The notes under the pieces: generated by a model | Told to the model about the DNA's origin: nothing | The model's input: only the letters and a program-made list of their open reading frames with translations | Databases searched by the model: none | Assembly (NCBI RefSeq): GCF_021190955.1 | Contig: NZ_JAIOAO010000003.1 | Span: forward strand, 620,001 to 684,000 | DNA length: 64,000 nucleotides | DNA from: Parachryseolinea silvisoli | GTDB lineage: Bacteria > Bacteroidota > Bacteroidia > Cytophagales > Cyclobacteriaceae | Direction: 5' to 3' | Shown here: piece after piece, positions 6,548-9,380 of the stretch | Numbering within the stretch: position 1 is the first letter of the stretch | Layout of the letters: each line of letters begins with the position of its first letter | Translations under genes and position numbers: made by a program

Positions 6548-7033
6548 TTATTTATTTGAAATTGTTTGATCTACTAAGTTGAGACTACGGTCCAGGCTTT
6601 CCTCCAGGGAGATCATCGTCTCAGTACGTTCAATGCCTTCTACCTGCTGAATCTTGTCGTGCAGCACGAGCTTGAGGTGATTGGTATCCTTACAGTGGAT
6701 CTTGCAGAACATGCTGTAGTTACCGGTTGTATAATGAATGCTCGTGATCTCCGGAATGGCCTTGATTTTAGCTATTACCTGGTCGTACAACGCACTTTTC
6801 TGCAGGAAGATTCCTATAAAGGCGGTGATATCATAGCCTAGCTTGGCGTAATTGACTTTCAACGTCGTTTTCTCGACAATGCCCGCTTCTTCCATCTTAT
6901 TCATCCGTACGTGCACAGTACCGCCGGAAACAAAGGCTTTTTTGGCTACTTCGGTATAAGGCTTCTTGGCATCCTGCATTAAAATCTCCAGGATCTTCAG
7001 GTCTACATTGTCAACTTTATAATTTTCTGCCAT
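6548..7033 (-). CDS. Lrp/AsnC-family transcriptional regulator
   Basis: A 161-residue protein with an N-terminal HTH (DLKILEILMQDAKKPYTEVA then VSGGTVHVRMNKMEEAGIV) and a C-terminal RAM/ligand domain (YTTGNYSMFCKIHCKDTNHL). Family members are octameric or dimeric regulators that usually sense amino acids and often control their own gene. It is on the same strand as the suf operon, 84 nt upstream of sufB, but separated by a likely promoter, so the link may only be positional. Ligand and targets are unknown. Confidence 0.92.
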   Translation of the reverse strand: MAENYKVDNVDLKILEILMQDAKKPYTEVAKKAFVSGGTVHVRMNKMEEAGIVEKTTLKVNYAKLGYDITAFIGIFLQKSALYDQVIAKIKAIPEITSIHYTTGNYSMFCKIHCKDTNHLKLVLHDKIQQVEGIERTETMISLEESLDRSLNLVDQTISNK

Positions 7034-7093: not shown

Positions 7094-7205
7094 TTATTGG
7101 AATGTTTTGTTGATTTCGATGCTAGTAAATGACTTACTTTGTTGCATAATTTACAACGAGACAAAAGAAACACACAGCATTCTCGCACACAAAAATAACA
7201 CATCT

Positions 7206-7322
7206 TGTAGGGTGTTGAAATTGGCAGACAAGCCCTCCGGTCTCGAGGGTGGAGGTAACGGAATAAAGTCCAGCCTTTGGCGACCTAACCGCTCCGTGGA
7301 GGTTCGAGTCCTTCTCCTACAG
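7206..7322 (+). ncRNA. tRNA-Leu-like RNA, copy A, with abnormal anticodon loop and long extra arm
   Basis: A cloverleaf can be drawn. The acceptor stem is TGTAGGG/TCCTACA, with discriminator G7322. The D arm TTG-AAATTGGCAGA-CAA is typical of class II tRNA-Leu. The T arm is GGAGG-TTCGAGT-CCTTC. The anticodon stem CCCTC/GAGGG closes a loop CGGTCTC: the position after C32 is G, not the near-universal U33, and the triplet would read GTC, which is not a leucine anticodon. Between anticodon stem and T arm lie 48 nt, against roughly 12-20 in ordinary tRNA-Leu, and they can fold on themselves (GCC-TTT-GGC at 7273-7281). CCA is not encoded. It may be a non-translational tRNA-like RNA or a decayed tRNA. 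Confidence 0.65.
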
Positions 7323-7355
7323 CCGCGCACACGCACACACAAAGTAACACATTAT

Positions 7356-7503
7356 TGTAGGGTGTTGAAATTGGCAGACATGCCCTCCGGTCTCGAGGGT
7401 GGAGGATAGGAACAAAGCAATGCGCTGACCCCGTCATTTTCTGGAATACAGGGTCAGTACAAAGCCTAACCGCTCCGTGGAGGTTCGAATCCTTCTCCTA
7501 CAG
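7356..7503 (+). ncRNA. tRNA-Leu-like RNA, copy B, with a 79-nt extra arm
   Basis: Tandem partner of copy A. Its first 50 nt differ from A at one position (7381), and the 3' portion from CCTAACCGCTCC onward differs at one base in the T loop. The same non-canonical anticodon loop CGGTCTC is kept. The region between anticodon stem and T arm is 79 nt and contains a 7-bp hairpin CTGACCC (7425-7431) / GGGTCAG (7451-7457). The extra arms of A and B are otherwise unrelated, so conserved ends frame variable inserts. One D-stem pair becomes a T-T mismatch here. An intrinsic terminator follows 37 nt later. Confidence 0.65.
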
Positions 7504-7539
7504 CAGCTCAGTTTAGGTTAATGAGTTATTCTAGAGCTA

Positions 7540-7570
7540 CCCGTTTCGGTTTTCCGGAACGGGTTTTTTT
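7540..7570 (+). terminator. Intrinsic terminator after the tRNA-like pair
   Basis: CCCGTTTCGG (7540-7549), TTTT, CCGGAACGGG (7554-7563), then seven T residues (7564-7570). The stem has one T-G pair. It implies that both tRNA-like RNAs are transcribed on the plus strand. Confidence 0.88.
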
Positions 7571-7694
7571 ATGCACTTTGCCCACCGTCCAAACCGGGTT
7601 CATGACCAAATTCTTATATTCCTGTTTGATTTGCTGCGAACAATCGTTTGCTTTGGACTATTAAATATACTGATACGTCACGCGTCCGATTACT

Positions 7695-9380
7695 ATGAAA
7701 GATTTTCCGTGGTTTAAGCATTACCCCCCTCAGGTTGCACATGAAATAAAGCTCTATGAGTACGAGTCGTTGATCGAGCTTTTTGAGAAGAGTGTAGGGC
7801 GCTTCCGCGACCGGGTTGCTTTTGAAAACATGGGTGTAACGCTAACCTATGGAAGGGTGCACGAGCTCTCAGGACACTTTGCGGCCTATCTGCAGAAAGA
7901 TCTCGGTCTGAAAAAAGGTGACAGAATCGCCATTCAGATGCCCAACCTGTTGCAGTTTCCCATTGTATTCTTCGGCGCCCTGCGTGCCGGCCTCACAGTG
8001 GTCAATACCAATCCACTCTATACACCGCGCGAGATGGAGCACCAATTCAAAGATGCCGGTATTTCGGCCATCGTCATTGTTGCCAACTTTGCGAGCCACC
8101 TGGAAAAGATCAAGGACAACGTACCGTCTCTAAAACATATCATCGTGACTCAACTGGGCGACATGCTGGGCGGCCTGAAAGGCACGATCGTGAACCTGGT
8201 GGTGAAACACATCAAGAAGATGGTACCGCCCTATCACTTACCGACAGCGTTTTCATTTAAGGATGTCATGAAGAAAGGCGCGTCATTAAAGCTCGATGCG
8301 CCGAAAGTAACCGTCGACGACCTGGCGATATTGCAATACACCGGGGGGACTACGGGTATTGCCAAAGGTGCCAAACTTTCGCACGGCAATATTATAGCGC
8401 ATAATTCTATGATCACCCAATGGTTCCAGCCCTACCTGCAAGACAAACGTGATGGCGACGACCTGATCATCACCGCCATTCCGATGTATCACATCTTTGC
8501 CCTGACGGTAAACGGCTTCCTGATGTTCAGCACTGGCGTGAAGAATGTGCTGATCACAAACCCGCGCGATATGAAAGGCTTTGTAAAAGAGCTAAGCAAA
8601 CATAAGTTCACGATTATTACCGGTGTTAATACACTGTTTAATGGACTGCTGAACAACCCCGATTTTAAGAACCTCGACTTCTCACACTTGAAAGGCTCCG
8701 TAGCGGGTGGTATGGCGTTGCAAGATGCGGTGGCCAGGAAGTGGGAGCAAGTAACCGGTTCGGGCCTTATCGAAGGCTACGGCCTGAGCGAGACCTCGCC
8801 AGTATTGTGCTGTAATCCACTCGATGGTAAGCACCGGCTGGGCACCATCGGTCTGCCGATGCCCAACACCGAGGTGGCCGTATTCGACGATGACGGCAAC
8901 CGCCTGGCCGAAGGCGAGACGGGTGAGCTGTGTGCCCGCGGGCCGCAAGTTATGTCGGGCTATTGGGAAAAGGACAACGAAGGCGTATTCTTCAACAAGG
9001 AATGGTTCCGTACGGGCGACATTGGTATCATGGACAAAGAAGGATACTTCAAGATTGTCGATCGTAAAAAAGACATGATCAAGGTGTCTGGATTCAACGT
9101 ATATCCGAATGAGATCGAAAACGTACTGGCGGGCCATCCGAAAGTATTGGAAGTGGCCGCCATCGGCGTTCCCGACGAAAAGTCGGGCGAGGTTATCAAA
9201 GTCTTTATTGTAAAGAAAGACCAGAGCCTGACTGAGAAGGAAGTAAAAGATTATTGCCACGAAAATCTGACAAACTATAAAGTGCCGAAGTTGGTGGAGT
9301 TCCGCACGGAGCTTCCGAAGACCAACGTCGGTAAGATTTTGCGTCGCGCGCTGAAGGAAGAAAAGGCAGCGGCGGCCTAG
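7695..9380 (+). CDS. fadD: Long-chain fatty acid-CoA ligase
   Basis: A 561-residue ANL-superfamily enzyme that activates fatty acids to acyl-CoA through an acyl-adenylate. The P-loop is YTGGTTGIAKGAKLSH (near residue 216); GYGLSETSP and WFRTGDIG are the adenylate-binding motifs; the C-terminal lysine lies in PKTNVGKILRR. Length and motif spacing match FadD. It has its own upstream region after the terminator and shares a strand with the TerB-like gene downstream. It could feed the beta-oxidation thiolase at 35 kb. Confidence 0.93.
   Translation: MKDFPWFKHYPPQVAHEIKLYEYESLIELFEKSVGRFRDRVAFENMGVTLTYGRVHELSGHFAAYLQKDLGLKKGDRIAIQMPNLLQFPIVFFGALRAGLTVVNTNPLYTPREMEHQFKDAGISAIVIVANFASHLEKIKDNVPSLKHIIVTQLGDMLGGLKGTIVNLVVKHIKKMVPPYHLPTAFSFKDVMKKGASLKLDAPKVTVDDLAILQYTGGTTGIAKGAKLSHGNIIAHNSMITQWFQPYLQDKRDGDDLIITAIPMYHIFALTVNGFLMFSTGVKNVLITNPRDMKGFVKELSKHKFTIITGVNTLFNGLLNNPDFKNLDFSHLKGSVAGGMALQDAVARKWEQVTGSGLIEGYGLSETSPVLCCNPLDGKHRLGTIGLPMPNTEVAVFDDDGNRLAEGETGELCARGPQVMSGYWEKDNEGVFFNKEWFRTGDIGIMDKEGYFKIVDRKKDMIKVSGFNVYPNEIENVLAGHPKVLEVAAIGVPDEKSGEVIKVFIVKKDQSLTEKEVKDYCHENLTNYKVPKLVEFRTELPKTNVGKILRRALKEEKAAAA

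Follow-up and report, generated by a model that had tools for sequence, protein, structure and literature searches.

The window analysed here, a 64,000-nucleotide stretch of the Parachryseolinea silvisoli genome, carries two tandem tRNA-like RNAs flanked by a divergent gene for an AsnC/Lrp-type regulator and by a gene for a long-chain acyl-CoA ligase (Table 1). A sequence-only reading of this DNA had described two tRNA-Leu-like RNAs with acceptor, D and T arms, and these arms, together with an anticodon arm, can indeed be formed in both copies; in copy 2 the D stem opens with U opposite U instead of a pair. As that reading also stated, the first 50 nt of the copies are a single base apart (nucleotide 26, A/T), and both have the same anticodon-loop equivalent, CGGTCTC, which puts G at position 33 and gives the triplet GTC. 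The last 38 nt likewise differ at one base. The variable region is long in both copies, and the sequence between the shared ends differs from one copy to the other.

Table 1. Features of the tRNA-like RNA locus (positions are those of the window)
Feature	Position	Strand	Remarks
AsnC/Lrp-type regulator gene	6548-7033	-	divergent, 172 bp from copy 1; Pfam AsnC_trans_reg 65.7 bits
Candidate promoter box TTACTTTG	7134-7141	+	differs at one base from TAnnTTTG, the -7 box of Bacteroidetes; found by eye
Copy 1, tRNA-like RNA	7206-7323	+	118 nt, counting G73 and C74; scores 134.2 bits with model R1, for which this copy was one of the source sequences
Anticodon-loop equivalent, copy 1, CGGTCTC	7238-7244	+	positions 32-38; the conserved part is UCUC at 35-38
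Variable-arm internal loop, copy 1	5' side AATAAA 7262-7267; 3' side CTAA 7285-7288	+	conserved loop
Copy 2, tRNA-like RNA	7356-7504	+	149 nt, counting G73 and C74; scores 123.0 bits with model R1, for which this copy was one of the source sequences
Anticodon-loop equivalent, copy 2, CGGTCTC	7388-7394	+	positions 32-38
Variable-arm internal loop, copy 2	5' side AACAAA 7411-7416; 3' side CTAA 7466-7469	+	conserved loop, as in copy 1
Terminator-like hairpin and T run	7539-7564	+	after copy 2
Long-chain acyl-CoA ligase	7695-9380		other flank of the RNA copies

ARAGORN called no tRNA anywhere in the window, nothing in it reached an Rfam 15 gathering score (29 bits for the tRNA family RF00005), and the Rfam tRNA model gave no match for 7100-7620 even at E ≤ 10. 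R1, a covariance model that we built from 39 sequences including the two copies, recovers both of them. Scanning the P. silvisoli genome with R1 revealed no third copy, and the five other matches (27-49 bits) are ordinary Leu, Tyr and Ser tRNA genes. Single-sequence folding is uninformative (z = 0.68 for 7207-7328 and -1.63 for 7355-7508); the evidence for the fold is comparative.

We assessed the distribution of the RNA by several searches. With copy 1 as query and a threshold of E ≤ 0.1, blastn matched 171 of the 196 genomes in the family of P. silvisoli, although the weakest matches may be ordinary tRNAs. R1 matched 271 of the 291 genomes of the order before filtering; matches of about 85 nt and less than about 62 bits were taken as ordinary class II tRNAs, as in the P. 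silvisoli genome itself. By hand count, the long form is present in about 212 of the 291 genomes (best E ≤ 1e-18). Six more genomes of the order have matches near 1e-15, and the three that were fetched (G207, G399 and G446) carry a compact form. In a sample of 395 genomes from the phylum, the long form occurs outside the order in 26 (matches of at least 88 bits), comprising 23 genomes in three families of the same class (f23, f24 and f27) and three in a family of another class (f67); the genomes of family f26 within this sample gave no long-form match. Pattern scans returned at least 119 stretches from named genomes and at least 120 from viral contigs, the latter including 85 distinct copies, although both sets are biased because the pattern demanded GTCTC. 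Among the 80 titles listed for the named genomes are Chitinophaga, Pedobacter, Algoriphagus, Cyclobacterium, Saprospiraceae, other Bacteroidetes and one member of the Ignavibacteriales. Nothing in the collections of named phages and plasmids matched at E ≤ 1e-3.

To assess conservation, we fitted sequences from 97 chosen sources to R1, retaining 130 matches at E ≤ 1e-12 (30 of them viral) and dropping ten weaker ones, three of which were ordinary tRNAs; counting identical rows once leaves 125 distinct members. In this alignment (A4), whose fitting to R1 favours the structure, 98.3% of pairing cells are paired, compared with 84.5% in shuffles, and two-sided changes occur in 21 of 27 pairs, in 478 cells against 98 ± 17 in shuffles. 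A MAFFT alignment of closer relatives (A2; 38 of 45 rows plus locus L024, with five near-duplicates, one misread start and one D-loop insert left out) agrees, with 97.7% paired, seven pairs showing two-sided changes and 30 such cells against 10. The covariation among relatives thus backs the fold of the window copies, and the random decay of the arms that would be expected of degenerating genes is not seen. On this comparative evidence the copies are not decaying pseudogenes, because the pairs hold and most of them show two-sided changes.

The family has a cloverleaf with D and T arms, G18 and G19 in the D loop (122 and 121 of 125 members, the remainder being gaps) and U55 and C56 in the T loop of every member. 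Its acceptor end is close to invariant, with U1-A72 in 124 members, G2-C71 in 123, U3-A70 in 119, and G73 and C74 in all 125. Compensated variation is seen in acceptor pairs 4-7, midway along the anticodon stem and over part of the T stem. In the variable arm, an internal loop that hardly changes (AAUAAA-like/CUAA) accompanies a pair of short helices and a freely changing hairpin, and some members have an extra hairpin in the D loop. A hairpin like TCCCGATAGCTATCGGGA lies in the D-loop region at some loci and within the variable arm at others (loci L005, L009 and L038; L041, L042 and L075), and may be a small mobile repeat. The encoded C74 was considered as a special mark of the family and rejected, as the ordinary tRNA genes of these genomes encode C74 too; G73-C74 is, from these gene ends, a sign of tRNA-type processing and nothing unusual.

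The anticodon loop is conserved in part. Positions 35-38 are nearly fixed (U35 in 125 of 125 members, C36 in 124, U37 in 122 and C38 in 125), as is G39, while position 33 is U in 89 members, C in 17, G in 15 and A in 4, and position 34 is G in 112, C in 6, A in 5 and U in 2. The proposal that the odd loop is conserved therefore holds for UCUC and fails for the G at position 33, and of the loop sought in relatives it is likewise TCTC that is common, whereas G33 is a minority and U33 the commonest base. Some of the A4 sequences came from the pattern that required GTCTC. Among 120 copies that were not picked by their loop, G34 is present in 113; GTCTC is found in 112, seven others retain TCTC and one has GTCCC. 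Strict conservation of GUCUC was rejected, as the collection pattern had demanded GTCTC and the members listed from genus g96 have A34 or C34.

For comparison with these loops we took the 412 tRNAs that ARAGORN called across the fetched loci; 15 of the calls are compact members of the family itself (at 14 distinct places). T33 is present in 405 of the calls and a purine at position 37 in 389. The family departs from this rule of decoding tRNAs, having U33 in 89 of 125 members and a purine at 37 in one of 125; U37, present in 122 of 125 members, occurs in only 19 of the 412 calls, and 15 of those 19 are the compact members, which are also the only calls with UCUC at 35-38. The label tRNA-Leu-like fits the body, with its Leu-type D loop and long variable arm, but not the identity elements: bacterial leucine identity includes A73 in the available text of PMC9976931, whereas G73 is found in all 125 members, and the triplet is N-U-C, not a leucine anticodon, in 124. 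The fetched stretches of the P. silvisoli genome contain 44 ordinary tRNAs by ARAGORN, including two tRNA-Asp(GUC), two tRNA-Glu and five tRNA-Leu. Since these cover all twenty amino acids, the RNA is not a replacement tRNA. The drift at positions 33 and 34, set against the near-fixation of U35-C36-U37-C38, of G73 and of acceptor pairs 1-3, argues against decoding, and the RNA probably does not read codons.

The two forms were counted in g96, the genus of G207. By hand count, 59 of its 81 genomes have the long form at E ≤ 1e-18, 15 match over 77 nt and lack the long form, two (G846 and G887) have weak matches of 115-116 nt and five have neither form. The 14 compact loci fetched of the 15 keep the UGU/ACA-G73 acceptor end, the D and T loops and UCUC (in the loop CTATCTC) without the long arm. 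Position 34 is A or C in all 30 long-form and 14 compact g96 members listed. Judged from this natural variant, the long arm is dispensable and the acceptor end and UCUC loop are what stays. The two compact members tested pass the Rfam tRNA model at 42 bits. ARAGORN labels the compact member tRNA-Asp(ATC) (L398-L410 and L413), and in existing annotations it may be entered among the ordinary tRNAs.

We also analysed the surroundings of the RNA. The regulator in the window scores 169 bits with the NCBIfam AsnC model, under its cut-off of 227. Of 119 fetched loci, all from named genome records (the matches listed in the pattern scan, with loci of at most 8 kb in the 80 titled ones), 71 have an AsnC-type gene running divergently from the RNA, and in 62 of these 71 the gap, measured from the longest reading frame, is 122-182 bp. 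With the AsnC of the window as query, tblastn found the protein in 73 of the 119 loci and in 29 of the 30 long-form loci of g96, and in none of the 14 fetched compact loci or the 120 viral loci. The 80 titled loci divide into 49 with AsnC and 31 without; it accompanies the RNA in Chitinophagaceae, Pedobacter, Flammeovirgaceae, some Cyclobacteriaceae and an Ignavibacteriales MAG, and within the titled set it is absent from the Algoriphagus, Cyclobacterium and Saprospiraceae loci. The next most frequent neighbours each occur in at most 15 loci, and nine representatives of other recurrent neighbour clusters include no integrase. Regulators of the AsnC and Lrp type often control genes that diverge from their own, and the position of the gene makes control of the RNA by AsnC likely.

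The sigma-A -7 box, for which the available text of PMC9723704 gives the consensus TAnnTTTG, occurs on the RNA strand in 90 of 142 homologous intergenic regions, compared with 14 in single-base shuffles, and on the opposite strand, where it would serve asnC, in 41 of the 142. Of 95 boxes on the RNA strand, 50 end 30-45 nt upstream of the RNA. An exact box is absent upstream of the window copies, where there is a near match only. The strong terminator claimed to follow the copies is matched by a terminator-like hairpin with a T run; shuffles average 0.6 sites, so that the scan by itself is weak evidence. With a promoter box in many relatives, tandem copies and the terminator-like hairpin here, the RNA looks like its own transcription unit. 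Directly 3' of the last copy, before the hairpin, lies a stretch that by eye resembles TTTTGGGTTTAT or TTTAGGTTAATG (window 7505-7535), and similar 3' flanks were seen by eye at loci L019, L025, L033 and L035, from several lineages.

Many of the viral copies among the matches listed share an arm module, GGAUAA..GGGUUGACCAC (or GGGGUAGACCACC), after which comes a palindrome and, in many cases, UGUCC; the module is seen with a changing palindrome among loci L208-L327 (for example L212, L218 and L285). For the loops caught by one expression, in 52 of the 120 viral loci, a palindrome of at least six bases is present in 27 of 30 distinct loops against 6.6 expected from single-base shuffles, in sixteen different sequences. 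Cellular copies with the same module have one in 3 of 18 distinct loops against 4.5 expected, and palindromes were accordingly rejected as a general feature of the family. Kissing loops of the HIV-1 DIS type have palindromes of at least six bases that change in sequence and stay palindromic. Here the palindrome lies in the arm of a tRNA-like RNA and is consistent only in viral loops; that it changes yet is retained is possibly the trace that a kissing homodimer would leave, and a DNA-level cause is also possible. Of ten proteins from nine viral loci, five (at L226, L250, L264 and L293) match portal, terminase or virion families, and ARAGORN, run on 20 viral loci, found tRNA arrays in several and a tmRNA in four (L236, L258, L312 and L322). 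One of the viral contigs bearing the RNA also has a gene for a GroEL-type chaperonin (L231:1604-3235; PHROG 5725, 536 bits).

The fixed positions invite comparison with synthetase identity sets. The available text of PMC9976931 lists G73, G10, G34, U35, C36 and C38 for bacterial aspartate identity, gives G1-C72 and G2-C71 as strict in bacterial tRNA-Asp, and states that U1-A72 permits amidation of Asp-tRNA-Asn whereas G1-C72 and U20a prevent it. Five of the aspartate elements (G73, G34, U35, C36 and C38) occur together in 112 of 125 members and in both window copies, G34 being absent from the other 13. Two further elements do not fit: G10 is present in only 33 of 125 members, and G1-C72 is replaced by U1-A72 in 124. 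A GatCAB substrate would have U1-A72 and lack U20a; the family has this same U1-A72, and the base after C20 is A in 120 rows and a gap in five. Relative to the tRNAs of its own genome, the family shares GUC, C38 and G73 with tRNA-Asp, and tRNA-Asn, with its start read one base later than by ARAGORN, is the only one to join U1-A72 to G73; the class II body, the Leu-type D loop, U37 and the variable positions 33 and 34 set the family apart from both. The pattern suggests AspRS as the enzyme that fits most of the fixed features. AspRS recognition as an established property was rejected, as G34 drifts (A34 or C34 in the g96 members listed).

A route to asparagine was considered in the light of the enzymes present in the order. 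GatB is found in 104 of 118 genomes (103 over the cut-off), AsnRS in 59 of 59 and AsnB over the cut-off in 52 of 59; GlnRS is over the cut-off in 24 of 59 genomes, which include carriers and non-carriers of the RNA but not P. silvisoli. Sorted by hand, GatB is present in 85 of 86 genomes with the RNA (counting the compact G207) and 19 of 32 without it, an association confounded by small and incomplete genomes. As AsnRS, AsnB and GatB are common, there is no gap for a special route to fill, and the case for a tRNA-dependent asparagine route through the RNA is weakened.

We regard it as an even call that the family is a conserved non-decoding tRNA-like RNA, controlled by AsnC, processed like a tRNA and bound through the acceptor end and the UCUC loop by a partner that may be AspRS. 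The RNA would be transcribed as its own unit, often divergent from the AsnC-type regulator; its 3' end, N73-C74 as in the ordinary tRNA genes of these genomes, makes it probable that it is cut out and CCA-tailed like a tRNA, and the retained D-loop and T-loop bases would give it the tRNA shape. It would then be gripped at the two ends that synthetases contact, the acceptor (U1-A72, G2-C71, U3-A70 and G73) and the loop U35-C36-U37-C38, and either be charged with Asp or hold AspRS, in an amount set by the amino-acid sensor, serving as an amino-acid gauge or carrier. Within this scheme a job outside translation, which the sequence-only reading had raised, is very probable, although the support is inferential and comes from sequence; charging by any synthetase is evenly balanced, and charging with Asp in particular is doubtful. 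Several observations stand against the scheme: AspRS should dislike the loss of G34 in 13 of 125 members and in the listed g96 members, G10 is infrequent and the strict G1-C72 of tRNA-Asp is replaced, AsnC was not found at the 14 compact, 120 viral and 31 of the 80 named loci, and with AsnRS, AsnB and GatB widespread nothing forces a special asparagine route. A more elaborate version, in which an AsnC-controlled Bacteroidota carrier RNA would be charged with Asp through its tRNA-Asp-like loop and G73, amidated to Asn by virtue of U1-A72, barred from the ribosome by U37 and acquired by phages whose copies dimerise through palindromic arm loops, is quite unlikely as a whole.

The RNA could instead regulate by base pairing, with an exposed UCUC (and the nearly fixed G39) pairing to GAGA-type targets and the tRNA fold, processed like a tRNA, as a stable scaffold. 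Fixation of UCUC whatever the bases at 33 and 34, and its survival in the compact form without the long arm, suit pairing as well as they suit protein contact; but the acceptor end is about as fixed as the loop, which pairing would not need, and four bases are too few for a target search, so that we consider this somewhat unlikely. A decoding tRNA, as an extra GAN-reading Asp isoacceptor with an odd body, would account for U33 and G34-U35-C36 being the commonest base and triplet, for viral copies lying among ordinary tRNA genes and for the ARAGORN reading of the compact form as tRNA-Asp(atc). It is highly improbable given U37 in 122 members, a base other than U33 in 36, drift of N34 between Asp and Glu triplets and the full set of ordinary tRNAs in the same genome. 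An origin as a phage-derived tRNA element, either a decoy against tRNA-attacking defences or an integration site, draws on the 120 or more viral stretches, some of which lie close to portal or terminase genes and others within tRNA arrays that also include tmRNA. The conserved chromosomal place beside asnC across families, the neighbour clusters free of integrase in their nine representatives and the empty result from named phage and plasmid collections at E ≤ 1e-3 make it improbable. That the copies are recent pseudogenes of a duplicated tRNA-Leu, the other option entertained at the outset, could explain the Leu-like D arm, the class II shape and the lack of an ARAGORN call, but is scarcely credible for arms maintained by compensatory changes (two-sided in 21 of 27 pairs) and a loop that has kept UCUC over many families.

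Two known systems offer parallels. The tRNA-Other of Bacillus cereus is described in the available text of PMC3399842 as tRNA-like, inactive in translation, responsive in its expression to a metabolic signal and tolerably deleted in rich medium. The present family resembles it as a tRNA-like RNA that would act outside translation. According to the same text, tRNA-Other has a Trp anticodon, forms part of larger RNAs with putative Fur sites, lies beside a pathogenicity island and is reported from certain Bacilli, whereas the RNA described here spans several Bacteroidota families, is often tandem, often lies beside asnC and occurs in viral contigs. The non-proteinogenic tRNA-Gly of Staphylococcus aureus is likewise a case of tRNA paralogues out of translation in the available text of PMC4052509; unlike it, the family retains G18G19 and mostly a long variable arm, and nothing links it to a peptidoglycan enzyme. 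The pair A51-U63, which that text describes as weak for EF-Tu, is present in 113 of 125 members, but is not rare in scorable ordinary tRNAs (7 of 39 from P. silvisoli and 101 of 337 others). A search for stable RNAs of T4 type gave no lead. The long form, both in the window and in the 14 long-member loci searched, stays under the gathering score of every Rfam 15 family, and we found no description of the family in the literature searched, a scope from which most subscription papers and all preprints fall outside.

From these comparisons of sequence, we rate the family as a new and widespread variant of a tRNA kept out of translation. Non-decoding tRNA paralogues have so far been scattered cases. 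With a family that extends over Bacteroidota orders and viral contigs, often adjoined by a regulator and present in genera with named strains (Pedobacter, Chitinophaga and Algoriphagus), an off-ribosome role of a tRNA would become directly testable, and the contrast of interest is that the sites of synthetase contact are fixed while those of decoding drift.
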